Assembly (NCBI RefSeq): GCF_014648275.1
Contig: NZ_BMQU01000012.1
Location: 62,001 to 126,000 of the forward strand
Source: Pseudomonas laurentiana
Lineage (GTDB): Bacteria; Pseudomonadota; Gammaproteobacteria; Pseudomonadales; Pseudomonadaceae
Direction: 5' to 3'
Length of the DNA stretch: 64,000 bases
This document shows, piece by piece, positions 5,441 to 63,766 of the stretch (position 1 is its first letter; each line of letters opens with the position of its first letter). Under the pieces are notes generated by a model. That model had not been told where the DNA came from, did no database searches, and was given only the letters and a program-made list of their open reading frames with translations. Made by a program: the position numbers and the translations under genes.

Positions 5441-5500
5441 GGAACAGTCCTCTGAAGCTTCAATAATGCGTTACGGGTCGGCAGCGTGGCTGCAGACGGG

Positions 5501-6832: not shown

Positions 6833-6940
6833 GGCAGGAATTCCAAGGACTAAAGGAGTAAGGGCGAAGTATACCCGAGCGCCCGCGCCTGGGGATCGTT
6901 ATAATCATTCGCTTTTGATGTCCGAAGGGTGGGGTGAGTC

Positions 6941-10938: not shown

Positions 10939-11031
10939 TGTAAACGCGGATTTTATGTGGGAGGGCCTGCGCGGCTGGCAATCGGCCTCGCAGCGAATCC
11001 CGCAGACATCAAGAGCAGAGCGAGAGTGGAT

Positions 11032-13211: not shown

Positions 13212-13251
13212 GGTATGGCCATGCGTGATGTTTTGAACAGGGTGCTGGTTC

Positions 13252-21050: not shown

Positions 21051-21164
21051 GTGACGCGCCATGAGGCTAGGGTGACGAGCGCATTTGCTGCTAAAGGCAA
21101 TGCAAAGCCGCTTTATGGCAACATCGACAGCGGGTTGGTCAATCCCGGTTCGTTGGTGCTTTAA
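21051..21164 (+). CDS. Possible 37-aa leader ORF before wbpA
   Basis: GTG 21051 is preceded by GGAGG with 5-base spacing, an ideal ribosome site, and opens a 37-codon frame that ends 34 bases before wbpA. The peptide starts [20 protein letters not shown] recognise no homologue. It is in a different frame from wbpA. It may be a leader peptide, a gene remnant, or chance. Confidence 0.3.
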
Positions 21165-21198
21165 CTGTTTTAGTTTTATAGATGGGGAGTTTTGCCAG

Positions 21199-23480
<2,282 letters not shown>

Positions 23481-40514: not shown

Positions 40515-40536
40515 TTTCACAAGGCCGGGGCGGCAC

Positions 40537-44985: not shown

Positions 44986-44991
44986 GAGCAC

Positions 44992-45208
44992 CTCCAGTCA
45001 AGTTGAACTGGACGGGGACTCGGATCAAATCACCTTCCTAAACGGGGTCACGGTACGCGCCACCACTAACGGGTCCGCAGCTTCCCCTGGGTCAAGTTTT
45101 TTGACGGGGACTTAGCCTCCAAAAAGCCAGCGACCACTGTCCAGTGGGGTAAGTGTAGAGCACGGTGTTTCTAGTCCAATGGGCCGCGGAGCGCCGGGGA
45201 GGCGGTTT
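44992..45208 (-). other. IS110 non-coding end, candidate bridge-RNA region
   Basis: About 217 bases lie between the IS110 start codon and the inferred element end, with no ORF. In IS621-type IS110 elements this region encodes a structured bridge RNA that guides recombination. I cannot assign target and donor loops by eye. Confidence 0.35.
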
Positions 45209-45468
45209 TTTAAGATCGATTTTTCCCGTTCCAGCCGATTGATTCGAGCTTCTAGCTCCTGGATTTTTTGCTGTTCGGGCGTCAGCGCTTTACTGGTCGG
45301 GGTTACACCATTTCGCTCTTCCTGAAGCTAGTTAACCCATCGACGCAGGGCCGACTCGACCAGCCCAAGCGAACGGGCTGCTTCGATATGGCTATAGCCC
45401 TGATCGAGCGCTAGGCTGGCAGCTTCGCGCTTGAATTCTTGGGTAAAGGAGCGACGTTACTTGGTCAT
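45207..45468 (-). pseudogene. IS3-family OrfA with nonsense codons
   Basis: The minus-strand HTH_Tnp_1 protein reads from ATG 45468 as M-T-K-stop, then RRSFTQEFKREAASLALDQG to SALRRWVN-stop-LQEERNG. The family has Gln at both stop positions, so each stop is a single C-to-T change. The coding similarity ends at EKSILKK, where the IS110 element begins. Confidence 0.85.
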
Positions 45469-45574
45469 CGGACACCTCTCTATGGCGAGCATTCTCGCCT
45501 AAATGGGTGTCCGGAACCATTAGACCACTACAAAGCTCATCGTGCATTAGCCGAAGATGAGCTTTGGCTACTGC

Positions 45575-47461: not shown

Positions 47462-47707
47462 TATGTTTCTCGTGTTTTTGTCGATTACTGGCGGCTTTAC
47501 TTTGGCCCGTCATTCTACCATCACGGCGCATCAAAATCGCGACTTAGAGGGCAGCGGTACTCGTTGGGGCAACCACCTAAAAGCAAGCGGCGTAGGTCGA
47601 GGGGGGAGTGGCATGGGCTAGCTTTGAATGCGATCCACCGTACCCACATTCAAAGCCACTTGTTGATGCCCGATGCTGTGCTCCGATTTCTCAGGAGCCC
47701 ATTCACC

Positions 47708-48067
47708 ATGATGCGACCCGACGCCAAAGTCGAAAAAGTGTACCTGTACCCCAAGCCCGTCGACTTCCGAAAATCCATCCACGGACTGGCCGCTCTGGTG
47801 GAACTCGATATCAAGGTGGCCGTGTTCGACCCGGTACTTTTCGTGTTCCTCAACAAGCCGCGCAACCGCGTGAAGATCCTCTATTGGGAGTGTAACGGCT
47901 TCTGTCTTTGGCTCAAGCGCCTGGAATCTGAACGGTTCAAAATTTCGCCCGACGCCACCGATGAGGCGATTGTCCTGACCGTCCAGGTACTGAATTGGCT
48001 ACTCGACGGCTTTGACCTCTGGTGCAACCGTCTGCATCAGGTTCTGACTCCGCATTTCGTCGCCTGA
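47708..48067 (+). CDS. tnpB: IS66-family TnpB (Orf2)
   Basis: This 119-residue IS66 accessory protein begins MMRPDAKVEKVYLYPKPVDF and contains RKSIHGLAALVE and ILYWECNGFCLWLKRLE. The length is normal and the frame is open. The IS66 tnpA that should precede it is missing and the left terminal repeat was not found, so the element is truncated on this side. About 245 bases to the left (47462-47707) hold a 10-bp inverted repeat, GCTTTGAATG / CATTCAAAGC (47621-47656), and no gene. Confidence 0.88.
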   Translation: MMRPDAKVEKVYLYPKPVDFRKSIHGLAALVELDIKVAVFDPVLFVFLNKPRNRVKILYWECNGFCLWLKRLESERFKISPDATDEAIVLTVQVLNWLLDGFDLWCNRLHQVLTPHFVA

Positions 48068-48085
48068 GTTAGTATAATCCATGGC

Positions 48086-49612
48086 ATGATTTCCATGCCC
48101 AAAGACCTCCCTGACGATCCTGTTCTGCTCAAGCAATTGCTTGAGCAAATGATCAGTGAGCGTGAGTCGGACAAGGGCAAGATCGTTCACCTCGAAGAGG
48201 AAAACGCCCTGTTGCGCCAGCGCTTGTTCGGCCGCAAGTCCGAGCAGTGAGCGGACCCGCTGACGCCACAAATGGCGTTGTTCAACGAAGCTGAAAGCGT
48301 CGCCGAGCCTGCCAATGAAGCAGCGGAAGAAGAAACCATTGTACCGGCAAGACGACGTGGAAAGCGCAAACCGCTGCCCGTCGACCTTCCGTGGATTGAA
48401 GTCATCCACGAGCTGCCCGAGCACGAACTGACCTGTACTTGCGGGTGCCGTGAGCATCCCATCGGTGAAGAGGTCAGCTAGCAGCCCGAAATTGTCCCGA
48501 TGCAGATCCGTGTGATCAAACACATCCGCAAGATCTATGGTTGCTGTGGTTGCGAGAGCGCGCCAGTGACAGCCGACAAGCCCGCCCAATTGATCGAGAA
48601 AAGCCTGGCCACCCAAGCGTGCTTGCCACGCTGCTGACCACCAAATACGTCGACGGCCTGCCGCTTCATCGTTTCGAAAAAGTGCTGGGCCGCCACGGCA
48701 TCGATATCCCTCGGCAAACCTTGGCGCGTTGGGTCATCCAGTGCAGCGAGCATTTCCAGCTGCTGTTGAACTTGATGCGCGACAGTTTGCTATGCAGCCA
48801 GGTCATCCACTGCGACGAAGCACGCGTCCAGGTATTGAAAGAGCCTGGCCGTGAGCCGAGCAGTCAGTCCTGGATGTGGGTACAAACAGGTGGCCCGTCT
48901 GGCAGACCAGTCATTCTGTTCGACTACTCCACCAGCCGGGCGCAGGAAGTGGCGACGCGCCTGCTCGATGGCTATCGCGGCTACGTGATGACCGACGATT
49001 ACGCAGGTTACAACGCACTGGGTGCACAAGCGGGCGTTGAACGCCTGGGCTGTTGGGCGCATGCGCGGCGTAAATTTGTCGAAGCACAGAAAGTGCAGCC
49101 AAAAGGGAAAACCGGGCGTGCAGACATTGAACCTGATCAACAAGCTGTACGGTGTAGAGCGGGATTTGAATACTGTGAGCGATGAAACCCGCAGGGCCGG
49201 TCGTCACAAACACAGCGTACCGCTGCTGGCCCAATTGAAAAGCTGGATGGAAAAGACACAGTCCCAAGTGACCTCGCAGAACGCTCTCGGCAAAGCGATC
49301 AACTACTTGGCGAGCAACTGGAGCAAGCTTGCGCGGTATGTAGAGGAAGGTTTCCTACCCATGGATAACAATGCTGCCGAACGCGCTATCCGTCCCTTTG
49401 TGATCGGCAGAAAGAATTGGTTGTTCAGCGACACGCCGAAAGGCGCGACAGCCAGCGCACAACTGTACAGCCTGGTTGAAACCGCCAAAGCCAATGGGCA
49501 AAAGCCCTATGCGTGGCTGCGCCACGCACTGAAGCAACTACCGCATGCTTCGACGGTTGACGATTACGAAGCGCTGTTGCCATGGAACTGCAAGCCGGTA
49601 ATGCCACGGTAA
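48086..49612 (+). pseudogene. IS66-family transposase TnpC, broken
   Basis: The frame starts MISMPKDLPDDPVLLKQLLE. Stops occur at 48248-48250 (after RLFGRKSEQ) and 48479-48481. A frameshift near 48605-48620 moves to another frame carrying SVLATLLTTKYVDGLPLHRF and [21 protein letters not shown] second frameshift near 49105 moves back, to [18 protein letters not shown] and [20 protein letters not shown], ending at 49612. All core domains are recognisable, but four lesions make it non-functional. Confidence 0.88.
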
Positions 49613-50062: not shown

Positions 50063-51139
50063 TTATCCAGCGGAAGTGCGCGCCACGGGCTGAACTTGAG
50101 TTGCAATAAGTTTCTGTTTTAACCAGCGACGAACGGTAAGATGCTTGTCTTCGAGTAGCCATGCGCAGAGCGCGGAGAAGAGTACACAGACGAAGATCGA
50201 AAGCCATGCTTTGGCGGGTTGCGAGGAGTTCATGTGTGCACTTAGCAGCACCCGGATGGGTTCGTGTGTCAGGTACATTGCATACGACAAGAACGCACCC
50301 TTGGATGCAATCCATTTAGCCTGCGAGGAAACACGTAGGTCAGTGCTAGCAAAGATAATGAACATTAGGGTTACGCCAGTGAGCAACATTAGTTGCTGGT
50401 CATACATGTTCATGTAACTGCCAAACGACAGTCGTTGGAACCTCCATAGCAGACCGGCGATGACCAATGCTAGCGGCAGTGCAAGCCGCTTCCAATTTAT
50501 GGAGGGCATATAGATATAGATATAAGCGCAAGCGGCGCCGAGGAACCACTCCCAGCCAATTGACTCCCAGATTGTAAAGTATCCAACTACCAGTATTGCT
50601 GGTATGGCAAGCACTGCCGCAAGCCCTCGCTCCACTGCCGACATGTCACGCCAAAAGAATACGATACCGAAGAAGACGTATAGCCACCATTCAACTGCAA
50701 TGCTCCAGAAGACGCTATTACCGCCAAATATGTTGACGCGTGGAACGCCTTCGATCATGCGTGTAAAGGGGGTGTGCTGTAGCTGGAATAGATGCGCGAT
50801 CCAGTCCCAGGCAGTAGGCGCAGTTCGACCGATTAGGAGTGCGAACACAACGAACGAAATAAGCATCGCGGGTACGTATAGGACGTAAATCCTACTAAAT
50901 CTATCAATCATGTACTCGCTGAAACTGTATTTCACACGGGTGAGGCAGTGATACGTAATCAGAAAACCAGACAGCCAGAAGAACACAACGACTGCCAAGC
51001 TCTGAAATGGCATGGTTTTTCCGAACCAACTGACAGGTTGCACGCCAGACAGTGTATGTCCAACCAGCACAGAAAATGCAGCCAACGCTCGAATTGCATT
51101 GAGCATCGTTGATTGGCCTATGGTCAAATTTTTCGTCAC
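50063..51139 (-). CDS. Acyltransferase-3 family membrane protein
   Basis: This 358-residue polytopic acyltransferase has LNAIRALAAFSVLVGHTLSG with the conserved Arg and His, FFWLSGFLITYH, and about ten membrane helices. There is no SGNH domain. It probably acylates a cell-surface sugar, but substrate and acyl group cannot be read. It is AT-richer than core genes and lies next to IS66 and group II intron remnants. It diverges from the family 2 glycosyltransferase gene. Confidence 0.87.
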   Translation of the reverse strand: MTKNLTIGQSTMLNAIRALAAFSVLVGHTLSGVQPVSWFGKTMPFQSLAVVVFFWLSGFLITYHCLTRVKYSFSEYMIDRFSRIYVLYVPAMLISFVVFALLIGRTAPTAWDWIAHLFQLQHTPFTRMIEGVPRVNIFGGNSVFWSIAVEWWLYVFFGIVFFWRDMSAVERGLAAVLAIPAILVVGYFTIWESIGWEWFLGAACAYIYIYMPSINWKRLALPLALVIAGLLWRFQRLSFGSYMNMYDQQLMLLTGVTLMFIIFASTDLRVSSQAKWIASKGAFLSYAMYLTHEPIRVLLSAHMNSSQPAKAWLSIFVCVLFSALCAWLLEDKHLTVRRWLKQKLIATQVQPVARTSAG

Positions 51140-51575
51140 GGACGAATCCTTTCTAGTGTGAAAGCATTGGGTAGATTTCGATTTTTGCTGGGAGTGAAGG
51201 TTACCAGAAAGTTCTTTTCAAGACGATGAGTTACCTCAGCATCGTTGTCTCCATGAACCTGTTCGCCGAGCGATTGTCGCTGTTGACCAATTACTCCGGT
51301 TTTTTATCAGAACCGGATGGCATTCATGCTTGACGTGACTTTCCCCGTTGGATACTGGGCGAGCCTTATGCTAGCTAGCAGCCAGGGCTCATTGATTGTC
51401 GACCTGTCCCAGATACAAAAAATATCACGAATAAGCGTCCTAGTATGCCAGTCGAAGCGTTAAACTGTAAGGAAAGGTGGATCCGCCAGTACCCTTGTTA
51501 CCGAGCTTGCAGCTGCACCCCAAAAGGCTAAATGGACGTTATTTGACCAGTTGTTCTGGTCTCTCAGGAGAAACA
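51140..51575. other. Divergent intergenic region
   Basis: About 435 bases lie between the acyltransferase and GT2 genes, with no gene. A short inverted repeat CCGGTT / AACCGG lies at 51296-51316. Promoters for both genes should be here, but none is clear. Confidence 0.4.
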
Positions 51576-52559
51576 ATGTCGAGTGAGTTTCTAGCAACGA
51601 AGAAGACTACTGAGGTGGGGCGTCTCCCCTCCAAGAAAGTGTCGGCCTCTGTGGCTGTATTGATGTGTACACGAAACGGTGAAAAGTTTCTGGTCGAGCA
51701 ACTTGAGTCTATTGAGCGTCAATCTCATAGAAATTTTCATGTTTTCATTTCCGATGACGGCTCAACGGACTCGACCTTAGCCATCCTTCAGCAGCAACAG
51801 CACTCATGGGGGGGGCGAGTTTCTTTGTTTAATGGGCCAGGAAAAGGGTTTGCCACTAATTTCTTGTCGCTGAGTTGCAACCCCGAGGTGGATGCCGATT
51901 TTTTTGCTTGGTGTGACCAGGATGATATCTGGCACGAGGACAAGTTGAAAAAAGCGACGGAATGGTTGTCGGGGGTTCCCGCGGATATACCAGCTTTATA
52001 TTGTTCGCGCACGGAGTTGGTAAGTGAGGTGGGACAGCCAATCGGCTTTTCGACCTTGTTTCGCCGAAAGCCCGATTTTTGTAATGCGCTCGTTCAGAAT
52101 ATCGCTGGTGGTAACACCATGGTATTCAATCGGGAGTTGATGATGTTGCTGCGCGAGGCAGGTGACTCAGTGCCCGCCGTATCCCATGACTGGTGGGCTT
52201 ATCTATTAGTTAGTGGTTGTGGCGGGAAAATTTTTTATGATTCAAATCCTTCAATTCTGTATCGACAACACGATTCAAATTGTGTGGGTGCAAACACAGG
52301 AGTTCGTGAAAGCGGCAAGAGAGTCAAGCAACTGTTGCACGGTCGCTATAGACAATGGATGGACCAGAACATCGTAGCCTTGCAGGCAATCAGTCATCGC
52401 TTTACACCTGAAAACAGAAATACCCTGGAACTGTTTAGCCGTGCTCGAAAAGGTAACCTGTTTAAGCGCCTTGCGGGAATGCGACGTGCCGGCGTCTATC
52501 GTCAAACCTACCTTGGCAATATCGGTCTTTTGGCAGCAATATTCATTCGGCGCGTCTAA
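51576..52559 (+). CDS. Glycosyltransferase family 2
   Basis: This 327-residue GT-A enzyme starts at ATG 51576 (MSSEFLATKK), with CAGGAG at good spacing; the longer frame from 51477 lacks similarity. The nucleotide-sugar segment is VAVLMCTRNGEKFLVEQLES, followed by FISDDGSTDST and the metal-binding region WCDQDDIWHEDKL. It resembles rhamnosyltransferase-like members of the family that build surface polysaccharide. It stands alone on the plus strand, converging on the beta-helix/RTX gene, so its pathway (O-antigen or the ABC-exported glycan) is uncertain. Confidence 0.87.
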   Translation: MSSEFLATKKTTEVGRLPSKKVSASVAVLMCTRNGEKFLVEQLESIERQSHRNFHVFISDDGSTDSTLAILQQQQHSWGGRVSLFNGPGKGFATNFLSLSCNPEVDADFFAWCDQDDIWHEDKLKKATEWLSGVPADIPALYCSRTELVSEVGQPIGFSTLFRRKPDFCNALVQNIAGGNTMVFNRELMMLLREAGDSVPAVSHDWWAYLLVSGCGGKIFYDSNPSILYRQHDSNCVGANTGVRESGKRVKQLLHGRYRQWMDQNIVALQAISHRFTPENRNTLELFSRARKGNLFKRLAGMRRAGVYRQTYLGNIGLLAAIFIRRV

Positions 52560-52619: not shown

Positions 52620-54311
52620 TCAGAAGATAAAGTCTAGAGGAGTGAGTTGATCTTTTCTAATGTTTTTCAGGGTGATGGTACTGGTCTCATTCAGCCGAAT
52701 GACGGCATCGTCGCCCTGTTGAGCAGTCAGTGCCATCACTTCTACAAACGAGGCGAGGTTGCCCGTCAGATCGATGACATCTTTCTCTCCGGCGTAACCG
52801 GAGAAATCCATGATGATGTCGTTGCCGCTGTCCTGTTTTTCCCAGAAGATGAAAGAATCGGCGCCCGGCCCGCCCCACAACACATCGTCGCCCAGGCCTC
52901 CATCCAGTACGTCGTCGCCTTCATTTCCGAAAAGTTGGTCATTCCCTGCGTCACCGAAGAGAAAATCATCACCTGCTCGCCCCTCGATATGGTCATCACC
53001 TTCGGCACCTGCTAGCAAATTGCTGTCGTCGTTACCCAACAGAATGTCGTTATAAGGCGTGCCCTGTGCACCTTGAATATTCTTGAGATGGTCATTGCCG
53101 CAGCATCCGAAGGCCCGGCCGTCATCAAGGTCTACCTTAACTGGTCTGGGTTTCTGTCCCGCAGTGTGCGGATGCCAATAGTCCACCATCGTCGCTTGAT
53201 CCTTGGCGATCAGCTTGTCGTCGCCCGGTGTGAGATTGGGGACGGGAAGAAAATTATGGTATCGAAGACGGTGCAATGGAGAAAGGTAGGTGGCGTATTC
53301 CGGTTCGACCGTTTCAATCTGGCCAGGCGTGGAGCGGCCGTGTTTGAGTATCAACGTCTGCTGGTCGGAGGTGTTATTGCCCAGGTCTTTCACTCGTGTT
53401 TTGTCATGGTTGTCGGGTAAGTAGTAAGGAATTAATGACTGCGTGACATCGTTGTCGCGTATGGCGCCAGCTTCCGAGCGTTTGAATGTGATGCCATGTA
53501 TGAAGTTCTTGACAGTATTACCCTTCACCAACACATCGGTGGCTCCATCACCGCCGACCCATATACCGTAGGTTGAGCGTGAGCGCGTGTGCCAGGCAGG
53601 CATATCAGAAGTGAGTTCCAGAGATCGATTGGAAATGCGGTTGCCTCGAACGATACTGCCGTCACCGAAGTGAGTCAGGCAAATGCCGACGCCTTCGCCT
53701 ATGTCCTTGACGCCGCTACCCCGGACCTCCTCGATAGTGTTGTCACTGACCTGTATGTCTTTGCCATAGACTTCGATGCCCATGGCGTAGGCGTTGGCGA
53801 TCCCAGTGCTCCCGCCTATGTCAGTAATCGTATTGTTGCGTATGACTGAATTATTACCTTCGACCCTGATGCCCCTGAAGGTGCTGTCATGAATAGTCAG
53901 TCGCTCGACCAGATGCTTGCCTTCACCCATGTCGTCAGAGGTTTTTGCGCGGTCGAAATAACCGGAGATGTAAACGGCATACTGGAAACCCGAGAGGGTT
54001 CCATTCCTGATTTCGAGTGCTTTATGCCCAAAGGCAGAAATGCCATAGAAGGCATTATCGGGTGTGCGAGGACCGCTCAGTGTGTGTCCGCCAAGATCCA
54101 GTACGACGTTGTCCGCAGCAATCTGGATGCCATTGCCCTGGGTTTCGAGGGATGCAGATAGTGTGTAGTGCCCAGGTACGCTGATGGTATAGGGCAGCGA
54201 GCTAATCTGCTGCACAGTTGCAGGGTTGGCAAGGGTGGTGTGCCCCCACAAACTGAATACAAGCAGGATCGTTGTTCGCAAGGAGGTAAGGTTGGCGAAG
54301 ATACGGTTCAT
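52620..54311 (-). CDS. Secreted parallel beta-helix protein with C-terminal RTX repeats
   Basis: This 563-residue protein has an N-terminal signal peptide (basic MNRIFANLTSLR, hydrophobic TTILLVFSLWG, then TLANP). Residues of about 45-330 form repeated short strands typical of a right-handed parallel beta-helix (DNVVLDLGGHTL, GIRVEGNNSVIRNNTIT, GIEVYGKDIQVSDNTIE). Residues of about 400-510 hold calcium-binding RTX nonapeptides (GAEGDDHIEG, AGDDFLFGDAGNDQLFG, GDDVLDGGLGDDVLWGG). Beta-helix plus RTX is the architecture of secreted polysaccharide epimerases and lyases such as AlgE-type enzymes, but I see no specific catalytic motif. Its ATG overlaps the stop of the sialyltransferase-like gene, making it the last of five coupled genes with the Wzm/Wzt exporter. 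A role in modifying or anchoring that glycan is inference. Confidence 0.8.
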   Translation of the reverse strand: MNRIFANLTSLRTTILLVFSLWGHTTLANPATVQQISSLPYTISVPGHYTLSASLETQGNGIQIAADNVVLDLGGHTLSGPRTPDNAFYGISAFGHKALEIRNGTLSGFQYAVYISGYFDRAKTSDDMGEGKHLVERLTIHDSTFRGIRVEGNNSVIRNNTITDIGGSTGIANAYAMGIEVYGKDIQVSDNTIEEVRGSGVKDIGEGVGICLTHFGDGSIVRGNRISNRSLELTSDMPAWHTRSRSTYGIWVGGDGATDVLVKGNTVKNFIHGITFKRSEAGAIRDNDVTQSLIPYYLPDNHDKTRVKDLGNNTSDQQTLILKHGRSTPGQIETVEPEYATYLSPLHRLRYHNFLPVPNLTPGDDKLIAKDQATMVDYWHPHTAGQKPRPVKVDLDDGRAFGCCGNDHLKNIQGAQGTPYNDILLGNDDSNLLAGAEGDDHIEGRAGDDFLFGDAGNDQLFGNEGDDVLDGGLGDDVLWGGPGADSFIFWEKQDSGNDIIMDFSGYAGEKDVIDLTGNLASFVEVMALTAQQGDDAVIRLNETSTITLKNIRKDQLTPLDFIF

Positions 54312-55504
54312 TGGTTTTGATCTTGTCGAAGAGCAGGCTTGTTAAGTCGGGTCGAGTTTCGCATTATCCGGTCGTTGGCGCTGTTCATGTATTGGCGTTG
54401 AGCTGGAACAAACAGGCTTCCTATGTGCTGCCGTGTCAGGGCATGGATCACCGAGCTGTCGGACGACAGGGCTAGCAATGCTGAGGCCGATGAAACCGAA
54501 ATCACCTTGCATTGTTGGTTGAGTACCGTAAATAGCTCGATGGGCAGATGTTCCAGATGCTCTGGAAATGGTTGTACCCTGTATTCGCCAAGCGCGTCGA
54601 GTAACTGTGTGACAAAGGCAGAGTCTGTACCGGCGTGTTTTTTTATATAAAGCAATTCGCGGGTCGTCACGTGCTCTTTGCAAATGTCGATGTACAAAGC
54701 GAGCTCATTTTTCTGGCTGGTAAATTTACTTCGGGTGAAGTTGCTGAGTATCAATAAGGCCGTCGTGCTATACCCCGCTTGGATTACATGCTGTTCGAAT
54801 TCATCGATTTCTGGAAACGTTTTCTTTAGGGAATGCAGGGTGTGCATTACCGCATCGGCGGGAATCACCACCGGTTCAGGGTAGGGAATCCCTTCGACCT
54901 GATCATCGAAGTTGATCGCGATCAGTGCCTTTTCCGCCGTTAGCCATGTTTTCACATTGCGCAATCGGCTTCGCCAGAACAACTCCTTAAAGCCACGTAG
55001 GCTTAGGGGCGCGCGCGGCCGCTCAGGTGGGTAGGAGGGGTAGAGAAATCCCGGCGCATCACCGTAGCAGATTATTCGCCCGGGCCTGAGGGCTTGCATG
55101 AAGGCCTGGGACGTATGGTCTGAGCTCGCATCGTGAGCGTAATAGAATGTGGAACAGCCACCGATTTCACTCAACCGCTGCTCAAGCCATCGAGCACGCT
55201 TCATCAGATTCCGATAGGGCGATAGGGGGCCGTCGCGCTCTTGCCGGGAAAATATCAATGTTGAAATGAAAGGATATTGGTGGAGTGCGCTAGCAAAGAA
55301 CTGGCGTGTTCGCGAATCCGGCTCGTGGTCGCTTGCCTCGTAAGACCATAGCACCAAGACCGCCGGAGTATCGGTCGGTATGGCATTGATTACACGGTCA
55401 TGTTCCAGTGCACACAGTGCGTGCAATAGTTGGTGAGGAAACGACACCATCATGACCGCACACGCTGTCTGCGCGACAGCGGTGTCAGGGTTCGAATGGC
55501 TCAT
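54308..55504 (-). CDS. Sialyltransferase/polysialyltransferase-like glycosyltransferase
   Basis: This protein of about 398 residues starts at ATG 55504 (MSHSNPDTAV), which overlaps the wzt stop (ATGA). The frame extends 23 codons further but would overlap wzt. It shows the pattern of bacterial GT52/polysialyltransferase-type enzymes: an early hydrophobic strand, an acidic-Gly motif (CYGDAPGFLY), an HP-motif-like segment (YIKKHAGTDS, with Ala for Pro) and a Ser-rich donor motif (VISVSSASALLAL). Such enzymes use CMP-nonulosonates. The neighbouring legionaminic-acid genes make that donor plausible. The family call is tentative because similarity is at the motif level. Confidence 0.55.
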   Translation of the reverse strand: MSHSNPDTAVAQTACAVMMVSFPHQLLHALCALEHDRVINAIPTDTPAVLVLWSYEASDHEPDSRTRQFFASALHQYPFISTLIFSRQERDGPLSPYRNLMKRARWLEQRLSEIGGCSTFYYAHDASSDHTSQAFMQALRPGRIICYGDAPGFLYPSYPPERPRAPLSLRGFKELFWRSRLRNVKTWLTAEKALIAINFDDQVEGIPYPEPVVIPADAVMHTLHSLKKTFPEIDEFEQHVIQAGYSTTALLILSNFTRSKFTSQKNELALYIDICKEHVTTRELLYIKKHAGTDSAFVTQLLDALGEYRVQPFPEHLEHLPIELFTVLNQQCKVISVSSASALLALSSDSSVIHALTRQHIGSLFVPAQRQYMNSANDRIMRNSTRLNKPALRQDQNQ

Positions 55505-56895
55505 GGTTTCTCGCGCAGGGGCGACATCTGGATGTCCCAAGGCAGATGAGGGCGAATCAGGCAGCCGGGCCAAGTGTTCGGCCAGTTACCTCGCACACCC
55601 GCAGCTTGACTATCGTCTGCCACGCTGAACTTCAGCACTGAAGACTGGATGATTCGATGTTCGGCTTCCGAGCCGGGCCAAAGCTCCACGTCGATACGGA
55701 AGTCCCCCACGTTCAGAAGTGGAGATTGGATCGTGCAGCGTTCAGTATATTGGCCTATCGCGCGGACACCCGGTGGGGCCTGATGATTGTCCATGCTGAA
55801 CAGCAGGTAGTGGCCCGCGAGATCCTTGAGGTGGATGTGGGCGTTGATAGGCCATTTTTCCTTGAGGATGGTGAAGGTTATCTCAACGGTGCAACTGGCT
55901 TTGATATCGAATTGAGCGCTCGGCTTTCCATCCAAGTCGACGATCCTGACGGAATCCAGGCGCACGCAATCGTCGAACAGCGGCGCTTCGGACTCTGCCC
56001 ACACTACCTCGGAGGTCATCGCTATTCCCGACCTGATATAGGAACGGGTGATGTCTGAAACGGTTGGTGCCGAGTCCCTTGACGCTTGGAGGTGTGTCTG
56101 TTCGATCCTGCTATCGTTGATGATTCTGCCGTGGGCCATGTGTACAGCACGATTGCAGATCCGGTTGACAGCATCCATATCGTGGCTGACGAACAGGAGC
56201 GTGCGACCTTGGTCCGCGACCTGCAGCATCTTGTCTGTGCAACGTCGCTGAAAGGCCGCGTCACCAACCGCCAGCACTTCGTCGACGATCAGGATTTCGG
56301 ATTCTAGGTGCGCCGCCACCGAGAACGCCAAGCGAACATACATGCCGGATGAATAGCGTTTGACGGGCGTATCGATAAGTTCTCCGAGCTCGGAGAACTC
56401 GATGATCTCCTCGAGTCGCCGGCTGATTTCCTTGGGCTTCATGCCCATGATCGAGCCGTTCAGGAAGATGTTTTCACGGCCGGTAAGATCACCATGGAAC
56501 CCTGTGCCGATCTCTAGCAAACTGATCAGGCGACCGCGAAAGCGGAACTTGCCAGACGAAGGTGAGGTAATGCGTGACAAAATCTTGAGCAGCGTACTTT
56601 TTCCGCAGCCATTTGGGCCGATGATACCGACACGGTCACCCTCTCCGATTTCCAGATTGATATCTCTGAGCGACCAGAAATGGTTAAGCGGTGCATCCTC
56701 TGTCTGCAGCCCGTCAAGGATGGTATGGGTACCAGGTGCTTCATAGGCAATCTTCACTGCAGGTTTGCGCAGGGGATTGACCACCCGGCCAAAGGCACGG
56801 CGCAATTGCTGATTGACCATTTCGGCGGCGGTCACATTCGATTTGCCAATTCGATACAGCTTGGAAATTTCTTCGCAACGAATGGCCCAGGTCAT
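55501..56895 (-). CDS. wzt: Wzt-like ABC transporter ATPase for polysaccharide export
   Basis: This 464-residue ATPase has Walker A GPNGCGKSTLLK, signature YSSGMYVRLAFSVAAHL, Walker B ILIVDEVLAVGD and the His switch LLFVSHDMD. The C-terminal extension of about 170 residues looks like the Wzt C-terminal carbohydrate-binding beta-sandwich, which in O8/O9a systems selects the capped or modified glycan end. I use ATG 56895 (MTWAIRCEEISKLYRIG), which overlaps the wzm stop; the longer frame is spurious. With Wzm it would export a lipid-linked glycan across the inner membrane. Confidence 0.93.
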   Translation of the reverse strand: MTWAIRCEEISKLYRIGKSNVTAAEMVNQQLRRAFGRVVNPLRKPAVKIAYEAPGTHTILDGLQTEDAPLNHFWSLRDINLEIGEGDRVGIIGPNGCGKSTLLKILSRITSPSSGKFRFRGRLISLLEIGTGFHGDLTGRENIFLNGSIMGMKPKEISRRLEEIIEFSELGELIDTPVKRYSSGMYVRLAFSVAAHLESEILIVDEVLAVGDAAFQRRCTDKMLQVADQGRTLLFVSHDMDAVNRICNRAVHMAHGRIINDSRIEQTHLQASRDSAPTVSDITRSYIRSGIAMTSEVVWAESEAPLFDDCVRLDSVRIVDLDGKPSAQFDIKASCTVEITFTILKEKWPINAHIHLKDLAGHYLLFSMDNHQAPPGVRAIGQYTERCTIQSPLLNVGDFRIDVELWPGSEAEHRIIQSSVLKFSVADDSQAAGVRGNWPNTWPGCLIRPHLPWDIQMSPLREKP

Positions 56896-57752
56896 AACGT
56901 ATCCACGACATTTTTTTCGAAATGCTGGAATATCAATACCCCAACAGTGAAGCACACCACTGCGATCGCAATCAGTGTCAACAACGTGCTTTGCGCCGGC
57001 CACTCTCCGTGCATGGCGTCACGGTAGCTGGTGATGACTAGGGAAAGCGGGTTAACCGAGTACCAAGGCTTGGCCCAGGACGGTACTGCCGAGACCGGAT
57101 AAATGGCCGGTGTGGAGTAATAGAACAGCTGTAGTGCCAGGGGGACCAGATGCTTGATGTCGCGATACTTGGCGTTGAGCGGTGCCAGCATGAGGCCTAC
57201 GCCCAGTCCGATCATCAGCGTGCAGCCGAGCAGTAGCGGCATCAGCAGCAGTAGTTGCAGCGTCCACACGCCGTAGGCGATGGCGAAAGGGGTGATCAGA
57301 AAAGCATACGCAATCAGGAAGTCGACTGCTGCACCTACGGCATATGAACCGCCAATCAGCAGCCTGGGAAAGTAGACCTTGCTGATCAGTCCCGCGTTGC
57401 CCTCGATCATTTGTACTGAAGGATTCAACACGTTCATGAACGCGTACCAGGGGATCACCGCGACCAGGTAGAACATAATGGTAGGCAATCCATCGGTCGG
57501 TACTTTCACCATTAGCCCGAAGACGATGACGAATACACCAACGGTAATCAGCGGAGTTAGAATGACCCAGCCCAGGCCGAAGATAGTCTGTGTATAACGG
57601 CCCTTCAGGTCGCGTTTGCAGAAAACCCACAGCAGTAGTCGAAAGTCCCAGAGGTTTCTAAGCAGCCCCAGAAGGTCGAATTGGCTGGTGTTGCTGACGA
57701 CCGTTTCCCTGAGTGGGGGACGGCTGTTTCCTTTGCTACTCATGGGCGTCAC
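56892..57752 (-). CDS. wzm: Wzm-like ABC-2 permease for polysaccharide export
   Basis: This 286-residue integral membrane protein has six predicted helices and the family segments CKRDLKGRYTQTIFGLGWVI and LFYYSTPAIYPVSAVP. It ends with VNPLSLVITSYRDAMHG before the final helix. The start is GTG 57752, overlapping the upstream stop (GTGA); ATG 57743 is an alternative. It forms the channel with Wzt. Its presence shows that this locus uses ABC-dependent export, distinct from the Wzx/Wzy system to the left. Confidence 0.92.
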   Translation of the reverse strand: MTPMSSKGNSRPPLRETVVSNTSQFDLLGLLRNLWDFRLLLWVFCKRDLKGRYTQTIFGLGWVILTPLITVGVFVIVFGLMVKVPTDGLPTIMFYLVAVIPWYAFMNVLNPSVQMIEGNAGLISKVYFPRLLIGGSYAVGAAVDFLIAYAFLITPFAIAYGVWTLQLLLLMPLLLGCTLMIGLGVGLMLAPLNAKYRDIKHLVPLALQLFYYSTPAIYPVSAVPSWAKPWYSVNPLSLVITSYRDAMHGEWPAQSTLLTLIAIAVVCFTVGVLIFQHFEKNVVDTL

Positions 57753-59299
57753 GTTCTGCTTGAGGTGGTGAACTGGGCTTGAACGCTGGTCAGTTCGGCG
57801 ATCAGGTCAATTATGCGCGCCATGGAGCGCCCGTCCTGCATACCCCATTCGCTGGCACTCTCAATTTGACCGGCGCGGGCCCGTTCATATGCCTCCTTGT
57901 CATCGGTCAGGCGCTCGAGCGTGGACTGGAAGACGCTGTATCGATTGGTCGTCACCAGGCCCTTGGCCCCGTCGAAATCGGTATAGCCATAGTCATAGCA
58001 GTCGTAGTTGATTGCCGGGATGCCACATGCAGTCGCCCAGCGCAAGGTAGAGGAGACGCAGGCGACAAAGAGGTCGCAGGCCGGTACCAGATCGAGGGTA
58101 TCGATATCGGTAACGCGATGATGCAGGCGATAAGGTCGCAGTACCTCGGTCAGCAGTTCGGGGTCGGTTACCGGGTGAGGGCGGATGACCACGTTGAAGT
58201 CAGTGAATCGGCTGACAGTGGCTAGTGCTTTGGCCCAACCCTTGCATAGCGCCTTGTAGTCGGGAAACTCCATGGGGATATTGCGCGAACCGTACTGGTC
58301 GGTGGGCCAGGCGCACACCAGCAGTGGCTTCTCGGGGTCTAGCCTCAGGCGCCGGAATACACGGTTTCTCGCCTGCTCGTCATGCCGTGCGGCATGCAGG
58401 ATGTCGTCATAGGCAGCCCCCGTCACGCGCAATTGACTCTCGGGAAACTGCATCCGCTGATAGTAACGTTCCATTTCGGGGCTTTCGACACCGATGCAGG
58501 TAACGCGACTGCTATTGGGGATCCATGGGTGCTCGGGGGCACACCCGAATGCTTCGAGCAAAATGATCCTGTCCCCAGGCATCCGTAACAGTTTTTTCGA
58601 AGCGTAATAGTTGACCCAGTGTGGGAATAGTGACGCGGTGATCTTGTTGATCAGATTGTGTTCGGCATCATACATCGGCTTGTCGAACAGGCTTTCCACC
58701 ATCTCCTTGGCTGTGCCCACAGCGAAAGGAATGATGAGGGTCGGCACCTGGTCGTTGTTGCAAAGCTTGGTAAGCAAGGCGTTGACCGAGCCAGGGAACT
58801 CCTGGCCAAAGACCACTAGAGAAGGGTTCACCTTCTTGTACACCTGGCGTGCGTAATAGAATGGTCGGAAGAATTTTGCGTTTCTTTTCTTCTGCTGTTT
58901 TTCCACGGCACTGGCCGTCGCATCGGTGAGCCTAAGCAGAGGACTCAGCAAAGCCGACAGCATAAGGACGCCCCATACGGACCATTTGCTTTTGTTGCTG
59001 CGCTGCTCTCGCAAAGAGTTTGGAACGTAGCCGTTCTCCAGGCCGTCGGCTATCTCCTCGTACTTTTTCGACAGTGGCGAGTGCTTCAATGATTTACCTG
59101 GAAAGTAGTCACTGAAGTCGTTGAGGCGACAGGTCGCCCGATCCTGCTTGAGGTTTATGTAGCCTGGCTGCGCAAAGAGAAAGCTGATGCCGTAACCAGC
59201 CTGTTTCGCTGCCACGGCAACCCGACGGAGCTCTACGAACTCACCTGCCTCATTGATGACAAAAAGAATGTTCTTGTCAGGAAGAGAACTGCACTTCAT
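57749..59299 (-). CDS. GT-B-fold glycosyltransferase of the exported glycan locus
   Basis: This 516-residue protein has two Rossmann-like halves. The N-terminal half starts NILFVINEAGEFVELRRVAV. The C-terminal half has VVIRPHPVTDPELL and DLFVACVSSTLRWATACGIP, a basic/HP motif followed by a Ser-Ser motif. These resemble GT-B enzymes such as CDP-glycerol glycerophosphotransferases and Kdo- or sialyl-type transferases. The exact family and donor are not clear to me. It starts the chain of five genes with 4-base overlaps (GT, wzm, wzt, sialyltransferase-like, beta-helix/RTX), so it is very probably a polymerising or priming transferase of that glycan. Confidence 0.65.
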   Translation of the reverse strand: MKCSSLPDKNILFVINEAGEFVELRRVAVAAKQAGYGISFLFAQPGYINLKQDRATCRLNDFSDYFPGKSLKHSPLSKKYEEIADGLENGYVPNSLREQRSNKSKWSVWGVLMLSALLSPLLRLTDATASAVEKQQKKRNAKFFRPFYYARQVYKKVNPSLVVFGQEFPGSVNALLTKLCNNDQVPTLIIPFAVGTAKEMVESLFDKPMYDAEHNLINKITASLFPHWVNYYASKKLLRMPGDRIILLEAFGCAPEHPWIPNSSRVTCIGVESPEMERYYQRMQFPESQLRVTGAAYDDILHAARHDEQARNRVFRRLRLDPEKPLLVCAWPTDQYGSRNIPMEFPDYKALCKGWAKALATVSRFTDFNVVIRPHPVTDPELLTEVLRPYRLHHRVTDIDTLDLVPACDLFVACVSSTLRWATACGIPAINYDCYDYGYTDFDGAKGLVTTNRYSVFQSTLERLTDDKEAYERARAGQIESASEWGMQDGRSMARIIDLIAELTSVQAQFTTSSRT

Positions 59300-59410: not shown

Positions 59411-59899
59411 TCACCGTGTGTCGTTGAGTGCATTTAAAGCGCGCAATCGGGCGCTCTCGGTTGCCTTCGCAGCTTCTGCGACAGGCCCCGACCCAGGCGT
59501 AAACTTTGCAATTTCCTTTGTCAGTTGCGCGTAGGCATTCAGCTTGACCATCGATGATTCGGGGGATGCGGAAAGTTCGCCCAGCGATTTTTCCGAGGCC
59601 AAGCGAGCGGCAGCTGCAACGGACTCGGGTGCTTTCGTGGCGAGTTTGGCTGCAGCTTCCGGTGAGGACACTGCCAAGTTCAGTGCATCATCCTCTAGTG
59701 TCCCCGCCTCGTCACTGATCTCTGCGGTCAGGGTGGGGGCAGGAGGCACGGGAGCTACAGCTGGAGTAGCAGGGGTGGAGGCGCTTAGCGAGGCAGGGCG
59801 GCCAATTATCTCGTTCTTGACTTTCGGGGAATTATCACAGCCGGTGAGGAGTAGGCACATTGAGCTCAGCACAATGAGAGACATAGGAAGCTTTTTCAC
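59411..59899 (-). CDS. Small Ala-rich lipoprotein
   Basis: This protein of about 162 residues has a lipoprotein signal (KKLPMSLIVLSSMCLLLTGC; the lipobox is LLTG-C). The mature part has a Pro/Ala-rich linker (PATPAVAPVPPAPT) followed by a helical, Ala-rich region with SPEAAAKLATKAPES. I use GTG 59899, because it gives the shortest good signal peptide and AAAGG lies at suitable spacing; TTG 59908 is also in frame. It sits between the PtmE-like gene and the exporter operon on the same strand. I do not recognise the family. The residue after the lipobox Cys is Asp, the classic inner-membrane retention residue in E. coli, though sorting rules differ in Pseudomonas. Confidence 0.75.
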   Translation of the reverse strand: MKKLPMSLIVLSSMCLLLTGCDNSPKVKNEIIGRPASLSASTPATPAVAPVPPAPTLTAEISDEAGTLEDDALNLAVSSPEAAAKLATKAPESVAAAARLASEKSLGELSASPESSMVKLNAYAQLTKEIAKFTPGSGPVAEAAKATESARLRALNALNDTR

Positions 59900-59966
59900 G
59901 GATATCAACCTTTCAATGCGAGGCCTGCAAAGTATCCCCGATATGGGGGCGCCAAGTTATTTGCAG

Positions 59967-61013
59967 TCATCTTTGCGAGGGCCATTCGTGTTGGGCGCGC
60001 TCAAACTCTTCGATCTGGCCGATATCCAGCCAATACTCCCGTAGCGGGAATGCAGCCGTGCTCTTGCGGGCCTTGATCAGGTCCTCGAACAGGGTCGGCA
60101 TGTCGTAGAAAGTCTCGGGCGGAATCAGGTCAAGCGCAGCGGGCGAGATCGCATAAATGCCGGCGTTGACAAAGAATCGGTGGACCGGCTTCTCATCGAT
60201 GGACTCGATGGCTGCACCGTCCATTCGTACCACGCCATAGGGGACCTGGAAGTCGTATTCGCGGACGGTCATGGTCGCCAAGGAATCATGCTCGTCATGG
60301 AATTGCACCAAGTTGTCGAACCGAGCGTGTGTCAGCAGGTCACCGTTCATGACTAGGATCGGATCTTGTGGGCGTTCTGGTAGCAGCGAAAGCGCACCCG
60401 CGGTGCCCAGGCGCTTGTGCTCCTGCAGGTAGCAAATGTTCACGCCCCATTTGCTGCCATCGCCGAAATGGTCTCGCACCACGGACGCGAGGTAGTTCAC
60501 CGAAAGGAAGAAGTTGCGAAAACCCTGCTCGATGAAGCTTTCCAGTATGCATTCCAAGATTGGCTTGCCTGCGATCATCAGCATGGGTTTGGGGCAGTTT
60601 TCGGTCAGCGGACGCAGACGCTCGCCCAGCCCGCCGGCCATGAGTACGACCCAGTTCGGGCGCTCCAGAATGCCGGCAATGCCGTCCAGCGTCACCAGGC
60701 CGACAACCTTGCGTTGGTCATCGATCAGGGGTAAATGGTGCAGCACGTTGCGCCGCATCAGCTTGAGCTGTTCGGCGGGCAGGGAAGTAGTGTGCGCGGT
60801 GATCGGCGAGGCATTCATGACTTCGGATGCGGGGCCGTCCAGCGAAAAACCACGGAGTATGGCCCGGCGGACATCGCCGTCGCTCAGCGTGCCGACGAGC
60901 TGTTGATCCTTGTCTAGCATCAGCGCCAATTGCAGGCCGCTGGCGTCGATACAGCGAATGGCGTCGCGCAGCGTTGCGTCCGTGCCAACTACGGTGTCTC
61001 TCCAGTCCTTCAC
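59967..61013 (-). CDS. ptmE: CBS-domain sugar-1-phosphate nucleotidyltransferase (PtmE-like)
   Basis: This 348-residue protein has two N-terminal CBS motifs (about residues 1-115; TLSDGDVRRAIL and LPLIDDQRKVVGLV). A nucleotidyltransferase domain follows, with VLMAGGLGERLRPLTENCPK, MNGDLLTHARFD and FFVNAGIYAISP. This CBS-plus-NTP-transferase layout is that of PtmE, the GlcN-1-phosphate guanylyltransferase that opens the legionaminic acid pathway in Campylobacter. legB and legC lie immediately across the divergent region, which supports the call. The start is GTG 61013. The CBS pair may bind a nucleotide for regulation. Confidence 0.82.
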   Translation of the reverse strand: MKDWRDTVVGTDATLRDAIRCIDASGLQLALMLDKDQQLVGTLSDGDVRRAILRGFSLDGPASEVMNASPITAHTTSLPAEQLKLMRRNVLHHLPLIDDQRKVVGLVTLDGIAGILERPNWVVLMAGGLGERLRPLTENCPKPMLMIAGKPILECILESFIEQGFRNFFLSVNYLASVVRDHFGDGSKWGVNICYLQEHKRLGTAGALSLLPERPQDPILVMNGDLLTHARFDNLVQFHDEHDSLATMTVREYDFQVPYGVVRMDGAAIESIDEKPVHRFFVNAGIYAISPAALDLIPPETFYDMPTLFEDLIKARKSTAAFPLREYWLDIGQIEEFERAQHEWPSQR

Positions 61014-61625: not shown

Positions 61626-62606
61626 ATGACTACAGTTTTAGTGACCGGCGCCGATGGCTTCATTGGTTCGCATCTGACAGAATTGCTTGTGCGTGAAGGC
61701 TACAAGGTCAAGGCGCTTTCTCAATACAATTCGTTTAACTACTGGGGGTGGCTGGAGGACGTCGACTGCCTTTCTCGTATCGAAGTGCTCAACGGTGATG
61801 TCCGTGATCCGCACTACTGCAAGCACATTACCAAAGACGTGGATATCGTTTTCCACTTGGCCGCGCTGATTGCCATTCCTTACTCTTACGTTGCACCTGA
61901 CAGCTATGTCGACACCAACGTCAAAGGTACCTTGAATATTTGCCAGGCGGCCATGGAGAATGGTGTCAAGCGGGTCATCCATACTTCTACCAGTGAAGTT
62001 TACGGTACCGCGAAGTATGTTCCGATCGACGAAAAACATCCGTTGCAGGCTCAGTCGCCCTACAGTGCTTCGAAAATTGGTGCCGATGCGATGGCGATGA
62101 GTTTCTACAACGCTTTCGACCTGCCGCTGACGATTGCCCGGCCGTTCAATACCTACGGGCCTCGCCAGTCTGCGCGTGCAGTGATCCCTACTATCATCAG
62201 CCAGATCGCTTCGGGTCAGAAGCAGATCAAGCTGGGCGATGTGACGCCTACCCGTGACTTCAACTACGTCGCCGACACCTGCCGTGGCTTCCTCGAACTG
62301 GCCCGCTGTGAGCAGGCGGTTGGCGAAGTCGTGAATATCGGCTCCAACTTCGAGATCTCGGTAGGGGACACCCTCAACCTGATCCGCGAACTGATGGGTA
62401 GCGACGTCGAGTTCCTCACCGACGAGCAGCGGATGCGTCCGGAGAAGTCCGAGGTCTTCCGCTTGTGGTGTGACAACAGCAAGATCAATGGCCTGACCGG
62501 CTTCAAGCCCGAGTACTCGATCCGCCAGGGCTTGGAGAAGACGGTTGAGTGGTTCACCCAGCCACAGAATCTCGCCAAGTACAAAGCCAATATCTATAAC
62601 GTCTGA
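61626..62606 (+). CDS. legB: LegB-like nucleotide-sugar 4,6-dehydratase
   Basis: This 326-residue extended SDR has VTGADGFIGSHLTELLVREG at the N-terminus and LSQYNSFNYWGWLE, a phrase characteristic of LegB/PglF-neighbour dehydratases. The catalytic region is TSTSEVYGTAKYVP, with Tyr/Lys in PYSASKIGADAMAM. LegB dehydrates GDP-GlcNAc to the 4-keto-6-deoxy intermediate on the way to legionaminic acid. AGGG lies 8 bases before the ATG. It is followed by legC at 8 bases. The 3' part of the gene is more G/C-ending in codon use than the 5' part. Confidence 0.87.
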   Translation: MTTVLVTGADGFIGSHLTELLVREGYKVKALSQYNSFNYWGWLEDVDCLSRIEVLNGDVRDPHYCKHITKDVDIVFHLAALIAIPYSYVAPDSYVDTNVKGTLNICQAAMENGVKRVIHTSTSEVYGTAKYVPIDEKHPLQAQSPYSASKIGADAMAMSFYNAFDLPLTIARPFNTYGPRQSARAVIPTIISQIASGQKQIKLGDVTPTRDFNYVADTCRGFLELARCEQAVGEVVNIGSNFEISVGDTLNLIRELMGSDVEFLTDEQRMRPEKSEVFRLWCDNSKINGLTGFKPEYSIRQGLEKTVEWFTQPQNLAKYKANIYNV

Positions 62607-62614: not shown

Positions 62615-63766
62615 ATGTACGACTCGCTTGTCAGGTTTGTGCGCGATCAGTACCGCACTCAGGAGTTTATTCCACTGCATGCTCCGGTATTTGCGGGTCA
62701 TGAACAGCGGTATGTTGGCGAAACCATCGCCTCCACTTTCGTCTCCAGTGTGGGGGCCTTCGTCGACCGCTTCGAGCACGACATGCAGGTCTTCACTGGC
62801 AGCCCGCGCGCCGTGGCGACCGTCAATGGCACGGCGGCCTTGCACATTGCCCTGTTGCTGGCCGGAGTGAGGGCTGGCGACTTGGTGATCACCCAGTCGC
62901 TGACCTTCGTGGCGACGTGTAATGCCATCGCTTACTGTGGCGCCGAGCCGGTCTTCGTGGACGTCGATCGCGAGACGCTGGGGCTTTCACCCTCGGCGCT
63001 GGAGCGCTGGCTCGATAGCGAAGCGATGATGGGCGAGGATGGCGTATGTCGGTTGCGTAAAGATGGCCGGGTGCTGCGCGCCTGCCTACCCATGCATACC
63101 TTCGGCCATCCGGTGGCGCTCAAGGAACTGCTGGTAGTCTGTGAGCGCTGGCAGTTGGCGTTGGTTGAGGACGCCGCCGAATCCCTGGGCAGTACCTATC
63201 AGGGGCAGCACACCGGCACTTTCGGGCTGATCGGGACGTTGAGCTTCAATGGCAACAAGATCATCACCACGGGAGGCGGTGGTATGGTGCTGACTAACGA
63301 CGCGCTGGGTACAAGGGCCAAGCATCTGACGACAACCGCCAAGCAGCCTCACGCCTATGAATATGTGCATGACGAAGTGGGCTACAACTATCGGCTGCCT
63401 AACCTGAATGCCGCGCTTGGCTGTGCCCAGCTCGAGCAGTTGGACGGTTTCCTGGCGGCAAAGCGTCAATTGGCCATGAACTACAAAGAGGCACTGCAGA
63501 GCAGTGACCTGACATTTGTCACCGAGCCGGCAGATTGCCGTTCGAACTACTGGCTGAATGCTGTCATCTGCCAGGATCTCGCTCAGCGGGATGCGTTGCT
63601 CAAAGCTACCAACGAGCGAGGCGTGATGACGCGCCCCATCTGGGCGCTGATGAACCGTCTGCCAGCCTACCAACACTGTCTGAGGGGGGACCTGAGCAAC
63701 GCCGAGTGGCTGGAAGCGCGGGTTGTCAACCTGCCGAGCAGCGTGCCGCCGCAGGAGGTCAAATGA
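62615..63766 (+). CDS. legC: LegC-like PLP aminotransferase
   Basis: This 383-residue DegT/DnrJ/EryC1 aminotransferase has FAGHEQRYVGETIASTFVSS at the start (a LegC-type opening), NGTAALHIALLLAGV, VEDAAESLGSTYQGQHTG, and the PLP Lys in LSFNGNKIITTGGGGM. It would aminate the LegB product at C4, a step shared by legionaminic and related di-N-acyl nonulosonates. It overlaps the following 2-epimerase gene by 4 bases. Confidence 0.88.
   Translation: MYDSLVRFVRDQYRTQEFIPLHAPVFAGHEQRYVGETIASTFVSSVGAFVDRFEHDMQVFTGSPRAVATVNGTAALHIALLLAGVRAGDLVITQSLTFVATCNAIAYCGAEPVFVDVDRETLGLSPSALERWLDSEAMMGEDGVCRLRKDGRVLRACLPMHTFGHPVALKELLVVCERWQLALVEDAAESLGSTYQGQHTGTFGLIGTLSFNGNKIITTGGGGMVLTNDALGTRAKHLTTTAKQPHAYEYVHDEVGYNYRLPNLNAALGCAQLEQLDGFLAAKRQLAMNYKEALQSSDLTFVTEPADCRSNYWLNAVICQDLAQRDALLKATNERGVMTRPIWALMNRLPAYQHCLRGDLSNAEWLEARVVNLPSSVPPQEVK

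Follow-up and report, generated by a model that had tools for sequence, protein, structure and literature searches.

The window analyzed here, a 64,000-nucleotide stretch of a Pseudomonas laurentiana contig, carries on its minus strand, in this order, genes for a CBS-nucleotidyltransferase, which we take to be PtmE-like, a small lipoprotein-like protein, a 516-aa glycosyltransferase-like protein, the permease Wzm, the ATPase Wzt, a second glycosyltransferase, and a protein that joins a beta-helix to a block of RTX repeats (Table 1). The five genes from the 516-aa glycosyltransferase to the RTX beta-helix gene are joined by four 4-nt start/stop overlaps (GTGA, ATGA, ATGA, and ATGA). The original prediction, drawn from the sequence alone, had placed the RTX gene last in the operon, and this position was borne out by a hairpin just 3' of its stop codon, followed by a convergent glycosyltransferase gene. 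The hairpin likely marks the operon end; the terminator scan found no terminator with a T-run at this site, and a promoter scan was uninformative (1 site vs. a shuffle mean of 6.2). Translational coupling of the RTX gene to wzm/wzt, as predicted, was found by way of one intervening gene and not directly: the immediate ATGA partner is the second glycosyltransferase gene, itself ATGA-coupled to wzt.

Table 1. Genes and features at the RTX beta-helix locus (positions in the window).
Feature	Position	Strand	Basis and remarks
Convergent family-2 glycosyltransferase	51477..52559	+	PF00535; P. soli counterpart in the corresponding position 55% identical
Hairpin just 3' of the RTX stop codon	52560..52625	-	MFE -28.2 kcal/mol, z -2.63, 3/200 shuffles as good
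RTX beta-helix gene	52620..54311	-	563 aa, ATG start, intact ORF; P. soli orthologue 54% identical
T1SS-like C-terminal part, residues 491-563	52623..52841	-	Alignment to type-I-secreted families; ends DFIF
RTX calcium-binding block (putative), residues 393-490	52842..53135	-	PF00353; opens with GCCGND motif, Cys403-Cys404
Linker, residues 301-392	53136..53411	-	No family match (Pfam, NCBIfam)
Right-handed beta-helix, residues ~29-300	53412..54227	-	PF13229, best stretch 135-291
Signal-peptide-like N-terminus, residues 1-28	54228..54311	-	Sequence features and hydropathy
Second glycosyltransferase, possibly polysialyltransferase-like	54308..55504	-	Coupled to RTX gene by ATGA
wzt, ABC ATPase with Wzt_C-like cargo domain	55501..56895	-	PF00005 over cut-off; ATGA overlaps
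wzm, ABC-2 permease	56892..57752	-	PF01061 over cut-off; 90% identical in P. soli
516-aa surface-carbohydrate glycosyltransferase-like gene	57749..59299	-	TIGR04396, BFO_1060, weak, below cut-off
Small lipoprotein-like gene	59411..59908	-	LTGC box by eye
CBS + nucleotidyltransferase	59967..61013	-	PF00571, PF00483
legB	61626..62606	+	TIGR04180, 526 bits vs. cut-off 475
legC aminotransferase	62615..63766	+	TIGR04181, 534 bits vs. cut-off 420

Glycosyltransferases and exporter

The putative cargo domain of wzt matched Wzt_C (PF14524) just below its cut-off (E 1.1e-6, 29.1 bits vs. 30.4). The 516-aa glycosyltransferase-like protein had no Pfam match, and a search with it recovered 1 of 199 genus genomes, its own, with P. 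soli, which has a 70%-identical copy, evidently falling outside this draw. Counted from the ATG of the overlap, the second glycosyltransferase has 398 aa (421 aa in the ORF list), and it may be polysialyltransferase-like, as suggested by a weak match of its P. soli homologue to PF07388 (A-2_8-polyST; E 0.008, 16.2 bits, below the cut-off of 23.3); the window protein itself had no match, and its search against solved structures gave two matches, both insignificant. Among 243 class genomes its profile recovered its own and no other, and it occurs together with the RTX gene in the same 2 of 399 Pseudomonas genomes. Bacterial polysialyltransferases have an HP motif that is important to them. The second glycosyltransferase reads KKHAGT in the window (54632-54637) and KKHPGT in P. 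soli (locus L016, 7567-8754), and given this difference the two enzymes may differ.

Domain anatomy of the RTX beta-helix protein

The predicted architecture, a Sec-type signal, a right-handed beta-helix, and RTX repeats, was supported by matches above the cut-off to Beta_helix (PF13229; E 8.1e-17, 61.7 bits vs. 25.9) and RTX (PF00353; E 7.2e-18, 64.6 bits vs. 23; best stretch 452-486) in the Pfam profile search, and by a signal-like N-terminus in both orthologues. By eye and hydropathy, this N-terminus runs from a basic start through a hydrophobic core to a cleavage-like site, TLA/N in the window protein and TQA/A in the P. soli protein, which has the same layout. Six RTX nonapeptide-like motifs were counted, where 2000 composition shuffles averaged 0.04 and reached 2 at most, and these motifs suggest that the block would bind calcium and fold upon it. 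In the search against solved structures, the best-scoring stretches of the full protein all lay within residues 400-556, and the RTX block resembled those of CyaA (match 400-500), RTX lipases, serralysins, and the R-modules of AlgE.

RTX proteins generally leave the cell by type I secretion and lack a signal peptide. The original description was right as far as it went and left out a T1SS-like C-terminus: the final ~110-150 residues can be aligned to the C-terminal ends of serralysin, the SMc04171 family, and PueAB, far below the curated cut-offs of those models. The protein thus described would combine a Sec-like front end with a T1SS-like back end. Identity between the orthologues is lowest in the signal-like segment (8/28 residues), intermediate in the linker (47/92), and highest, among the domains, in the RTX block (70/98). 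A second, weakly similar RTX-like stretch was seen elsewhere in the window genome (G000:C7:234344-234586; E 8.7e-6, 33%), within a 1137-codon open frame.

Conservation in Pseudomonas soli

The original prediction expected homologues of the RTX gene to keep company with the exporter and nonulosonate genes, and the sole full-length homologue found, in P. soli LMG 27941, carries the complete operon with gene order unchanged and ATGA at all four junctions. Amino acid identities between the two species were 90% for Wzm, 74% for Wzt, 70% for the 516-aa glycosyltransferase, 54% for the RTX protein, and 45% for the second glycosyltransferase, with 98% for RpsA. Silent divergence in the five coupled genes was near saturation (pS 0.66-0.80), against 0.24 for rpsA, a rough yardstick because it is codon-biased. 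The RTX gene has an intact frame and is under constraint (pN 0.32, pS 0.76). Because gene order and overlaps have outlasted near-saturated silent divergence, we argue for a shared function, with the conservation read from one orthologue pair. Among the coupled genes, the RTX gene and the second glycosyltransferase have changed fastest, as would be expected if both face one variable glycan. The lipoprotein-like gene also diverges fast (46% identity) and occupies the equivalent position in the two operons (P. soli copy, L016 3114-3644).

Distribution of homologues

The RTX beta-helix protein is rare. Among 398 other Pseudomonas genomes drawn, 1 (P. soli LMG 27941) encodes a full-length homologue, and the first set of relatives gave no match in 56 other genomes. 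The class draw gave matches in 9 of 369 genomes including its own, the other 8 of 368 being weak and helix-only, and the phylum draw in 4 of 299 including its own, the other 3 covering 70-82 N-terminal residues. The class and phylum matches trace to 13 distinct ORFs, none with an RTX motif, and of the 10 distinct helix-only relatives in the class survey, 9 have a hydrophobic N-terminal segment. Two peptide patterns scanned against the contigs of 84,980 species, a method that detects near relatives only, returned 36 matches, of which one was a relative, the P. soli locus.

On plasmids, 48 records matched the full protein; among the 20 matches listed, all begin at residue 322 at least, that is, in the linker and RTX part. 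The helix part matched 3 plasmid records weakly, one of them covering 80% at 23.5% identity. Viral contigs held 1 stretch matching a pattern, which was not a relative, and phages gave no helix match at E<=0.01; a phage tailspike origin gained no support from this search.

A polar stripe on the helix

In both orthologues a stripe of polar or charged positions runs along the helix (R149, E151, E180, Y182, H214, W251, D255, K277, R278, and E280). Twenty-five alignment columns hold a charged or aromatic residue that the orthologues share and that all 5 aligned helix-only relatives lack; these relatives were chosen from 10 distinct ones, include three paralogues from one genome, and have gaps at some of these columns. 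W251 and D255 of the stripe are shared with one of these relatives (L007). When the rungs were assigned by eye, the orthologues agreed at 12 of 14 outward strand positions, compared with 145 of 272 positions over the helix as a whole (P 0.011). Beta-helix enzymes carry their groove on the face corresponding to this stripe, and its conservation offers modest evidence for what may be a working groove.

The surroundings of helix-only relatives were mixed. One distant relative (G398) lies among genes for a flippase, glycosyltransferase, UDP-GlcNAc 2-epimerase, aminotransferase, and PglD-like acetyltransferases, a Wzx-type glycan locus, and the other three of the four fetched (G113, G101, and G240) showed no glycan locus by eye. 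A GDP-fucose-synthase-like ORF lies ~3 kb away in the G113 surroundings. At G101 (C27:1-4000; L034), four helix-only ORFs stand side by side, one of them short (160 aa), with no glycan gene seen by eye in the ORF starts.

The adjoining legionaminate-type pathway

The legB and legC genes are placed divergently from the RTX operon, and from the window end onwards (L030, 2036-8325) follow genes for NeuC, NeuB, WbuX, a WbuZ/HisF2-like protein, HisH, and a PseF-like cytidylyltransferase. The NeuC-type epimerase (TIGR03568) and NeuB-type synthase (TIGR03569) were both above the cut-off. The cytidylyltransferase exceeded the cut-off of PF02348 and fell below that of the PseF model (TIGR03584), and the match to the WbuZ/HisF2 model was likewise below its cut-off. 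Judged from these family assignments, the predicted pathway adjoining the RTX operon is legionaminate-type, and the WbuX/HisF2/HisH set suggests that the sugar probably bears an acetamidino group. The association of the RTX gene with Wzm/Wzt and nonulosonate genes, as originally put forward, was upheld by over-cut-off matches to PF01061 and PF00005 in the exporter and to TIGR04180 and TIGR04181 in legB and legC. Since the sole over-cut-off match to OPX (PF02563) in the window genome lies on another contig, an LPS-type route for the glycan appears more likely than a capsule route.

Secretion systems and site of action

A profile search of the window genome (99.99% complete, in 223 contigs, so that absence is not final) returned no PrtD and no GspD over the cut-off, while P. 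soli gave two matches of each; among 14 named control genomes, PrtD was over the cut-off in 0 and GspD in 2. The window genome has an LssB/LapB-type T1SS with HlyD and TolC-type partners. At the start of the RTX block, a Cys403-Cys404 pair is conserved in both orthologues and would fit an oxidizing periplasm; S-layer RTX proteins are described in the excerpted text of one study as being without cysteine (PMC3034196). With no PrtD or GspD over the cut-off in the window genome and a conserved Cys pair, our reading leans towards a protein that acts in the periplasm and may afterwards act at the surface. In P. soli, the PrtD and GspD matches make surface export possible.

Comparison with known systems

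Homologues of the helix occur in exported helix-only proteins (among them L004, L012-L014, and the tandem set at G101), whose N-terminal helix is ~30-36% identical over the longer alignments; they differ in having no RTX motif (13 distinct ORFs) and in mostly lacking the polar stripe (5 aligned). The RTX part is 41.7% identical over residues 401-562 to a Sulfitobacter indolifex plasmid gene annotated as a beta-helix repeat protein, whereas the helix went unmatched there in the helix-only search of the same plasmid collection. Combinations of a beta-helix with RTX repeats are thus already known, from AlgE and, by annotation, from this plasmid gene. Wzm/Wzt loci with legionaminate are known as well, and the Legionella polylegionaminate LPS loci reportedly pair a legionaminate pathway with an ABC O-antigen exporter; we know of no RTX beta-helix in them. 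To our knowledge, RsaA likewise has neither a PF13229-type helix nor a Sec signal.

According to the excerpted sources, S-layer proteins of the RsaA type also carry calcium-binding RTX repeats and are tied to surface O-polysaccharide (PMC6978808, PMC3034196), yet RsaA is a 98-kDa T1SS substrate with the exporter genes rsaD and rsaE adjoining (PMC3034196). The secreted mannuronan C5-epimerases of the AlgE family share the layout, with an A-module beta-helix followed by RTX R-modules, a link to calcium, and a self-made polysaccharide as substrate (PMC4444821, in excerpt), and the R-modules of AlgE4 and AlgE6 match the RTX block here. The present protein differs from AlgE in its Sec-like signal, the absence of DPHD, a helix profile without a PDB match, and its place in a Wzm/Wzt-legionaminate operon. 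AlgG, itself periplasmic, has a right-handed beta-helix and is encoded in a polysaccharide biosynthesis cluster, but it is described in the same excerpts as calcium-independent (PMC4444821), whereas our protein has an RTX block and no DPHD. The rhizobial PrsDE-secreted glycanase PlyA and pRL90140 combine RTX with glycan-processing or beta-helix-repeat parts; they are T1SS substrates without a signal peptide, and no Wzm/Wzt link appears in the excerpted text of that study (PMC2275737).

A Sec-fronted RTX beta-helix as the coupled last gene of a Wzm/Wzt operon was not described in the literature titles and abstract openings among the matches listed. The usual view of ABC-exported O-chains is that they are completed before passing the inner membrane. 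A secreted beta-helix protein dedicated to such an operon and fixed in it would, if true, imply a processing or retention step after export, and a Sec-exported RTX beta-helix, if true, would be an exception to the rule of type I, signal-less RTX secretion. We know of few enzymes that act on legionaminate-class sugars, and the two-species system would offer a small, testable case of a legionaminate-active protein.

Proposed function and alternatives

Our data indicate that the RTX beta-helix protein probably processes or holds the exported legionaminic-acid-type chain outside the inner membrane. In its fuller form, which we prefer with a confidence somewhat short of even, the protein is a dedicated envelope partner of the Wzm/Wzt-exported legionaminate-type glycan, Sec-exported and calcium-folded, that would bind the chain and most likely tailor or trim it. 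Sec would carry the protein across the inner membrane, periplasmic calcium would drive folding of the RTX block, and the protein would meet the glycan once Wzm/Wzt had moved the chain across. The helix stripe could then bind the newly exported legionaminate chain, and the helix would most likely tailor or trim it by a hydrolase- or esterase-type reaction rather than C5-epimerization, while the RTX block, by analogy with the R-modules in AlgE, may help to hold the chain. A narrower proposal sees in the Sec-exported RTX beta-helix a new type of glycan-processing envelope protein, folded on periplasmic calcium, whose helix would carry a novel active-site arrangement and which would trim or tailor (poly)legionaminate immediately after its export by Wzm/Wzt; this is possible, if rather unlikely.

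In favor of a glycan partner are the retained order, overlaps, and reading frame, the co-occurrence of the second glycosyltransferase, the adjoining nonulosonate genes, the polar stripe, the one helix-only relative within a glycan locus (G398), the lack of PrtD or GspD over the cut-off in the window genome, the Cys pair, and the OPX match on another contig. Against it stand the lack of a recognized catalytic family or motif in the RTX protein, so that catalysis is putative, the T1SS-like C-terminus together with the LssB/LapB-type T1SS in the genome, the PrtD and GspD matches of P. soli, and the three of four fetched helix-only surroundings that showed no glycan locus by eye.

The main rival, a form of the calcium-dependent anchor named in the original prediction, is a surface anchor or coat, in which the protein lies outside the cell, binds the glycan through calcium as RsaA does, and holds the glycan or itself in place, leaving the glycan unchanged. 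This is possible, if on balance unlikely. RsaA binds the Caulobacter O-antigen in a calcium-dependent manner and the RTX modules of AlgE bind alginate, as excerpted from the respective reports (PMC6978808, PMC4444821), and both the RTX block, as the best-conserved domain, and the lipoprotein-like gene encoded in the operon would suit such a role. The helix nevertheless keeps its polar stripe on the face where beta-helix enzymes have their groove, and the window genome offers no clear outer-membrane route in the form of GspD or PrtD over the cut-off, though its LssB-type T1SS is present.

Next comes an ordinary RTX glycanase or adhesin secreted by type I, with the N-terminal segment unused and the exporter being LssB/LapB-type or, in P. 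soli, PrtD-type. The T1SS-like C-terminus, albeit below model cut-offs, the LssB-type system with its HlyD and TolC-type partners, and the two PrtD matches of P. soli would agree with such a protein, and RTX polysaccharide-processing enzymes of Rhizobium do leave by PrsDE; however, in the same excerpts the PrsDE substrates have a signal-peptide probability of 0.000 (PMC2275737), whereas both orthologues here have a signal-like N-terminus, nearly all helix-only relatives have a hydrophobic N-terminal segment (9/10), the Cys pair is conserved, and PrtD over the cut-off is missing from the window genome. We consider this route improbable.

It is hardly probable, too, that the gene is a passenger carried along with a glycan island and plays no part in glycan biology. 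Its rarity, the transposase-like ORFs seen nearby by eye, and the low GC content (0.528 for the RTX gene and 0.551 for the operon vs. 0.609 in window 1-16000), a profile as in an acquired island, would agree with a passenger, but order and overlaps have been kept through near-saturated silent divergence, and the frame is intact.

In a nonulosonate glycoside the carbon adjacent to the carboxylate bears no proton, so a uronate epimerase or lyase mechanism would be impossible on the nonulosonate itself. That the protein acts on the exported glycan as a C5-epimerase of the mannuronan type or as a uronate lyase, the enzyme option of the original prediction, is very improbable despite the AlgE layout of beta-helix plus RTX and the precedent of AlgG, an epimerase with a beta-helix that works in the periplasm and whose gene belongs to a biosynthetic cluster (PMC4444821, in excerpt): neither orthologue contains a DPH or D.HE string in place of the DPHD/DPHE-like motif, of which DPHD is common to AlgE and AlgG in the same excerpts, Pfam and NCBIfam gave no epimerase or lyase family match at E<=0.01, and the helix profile matched 0 PDB sequences at E<=10. 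The question would reopen if the glycan also holds uronate, which it may, because a UDP-sugar dehydrogenase family gene (21085-22512) lies in the neighboring cluster.

Neighboring glycan-type genes

That neighboring cluster (window 21085-42573) is separate from the RTX operon and holds, besides the dehydrogenase gene, genes for an aminotransferase, an asparagine synthase-like protein, and glycosyltransferases, as well as a wbpM-like ORF recognized by eye (40444-42573), so that there seem to be two glycan systems in one window. Further along, at 43636-49612, lie ORFs that by eye resemble IS110 and IS66 elements, the IS66-like one apparently in several frames, with an acyltransferase-SGNH gene among them (45575-47461; PF01757 and PF19040). 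Beside the RTX operon, an acyltransferase-3 gene (50063-51139; PF01757) is a candidate for acylating one of the glycans.
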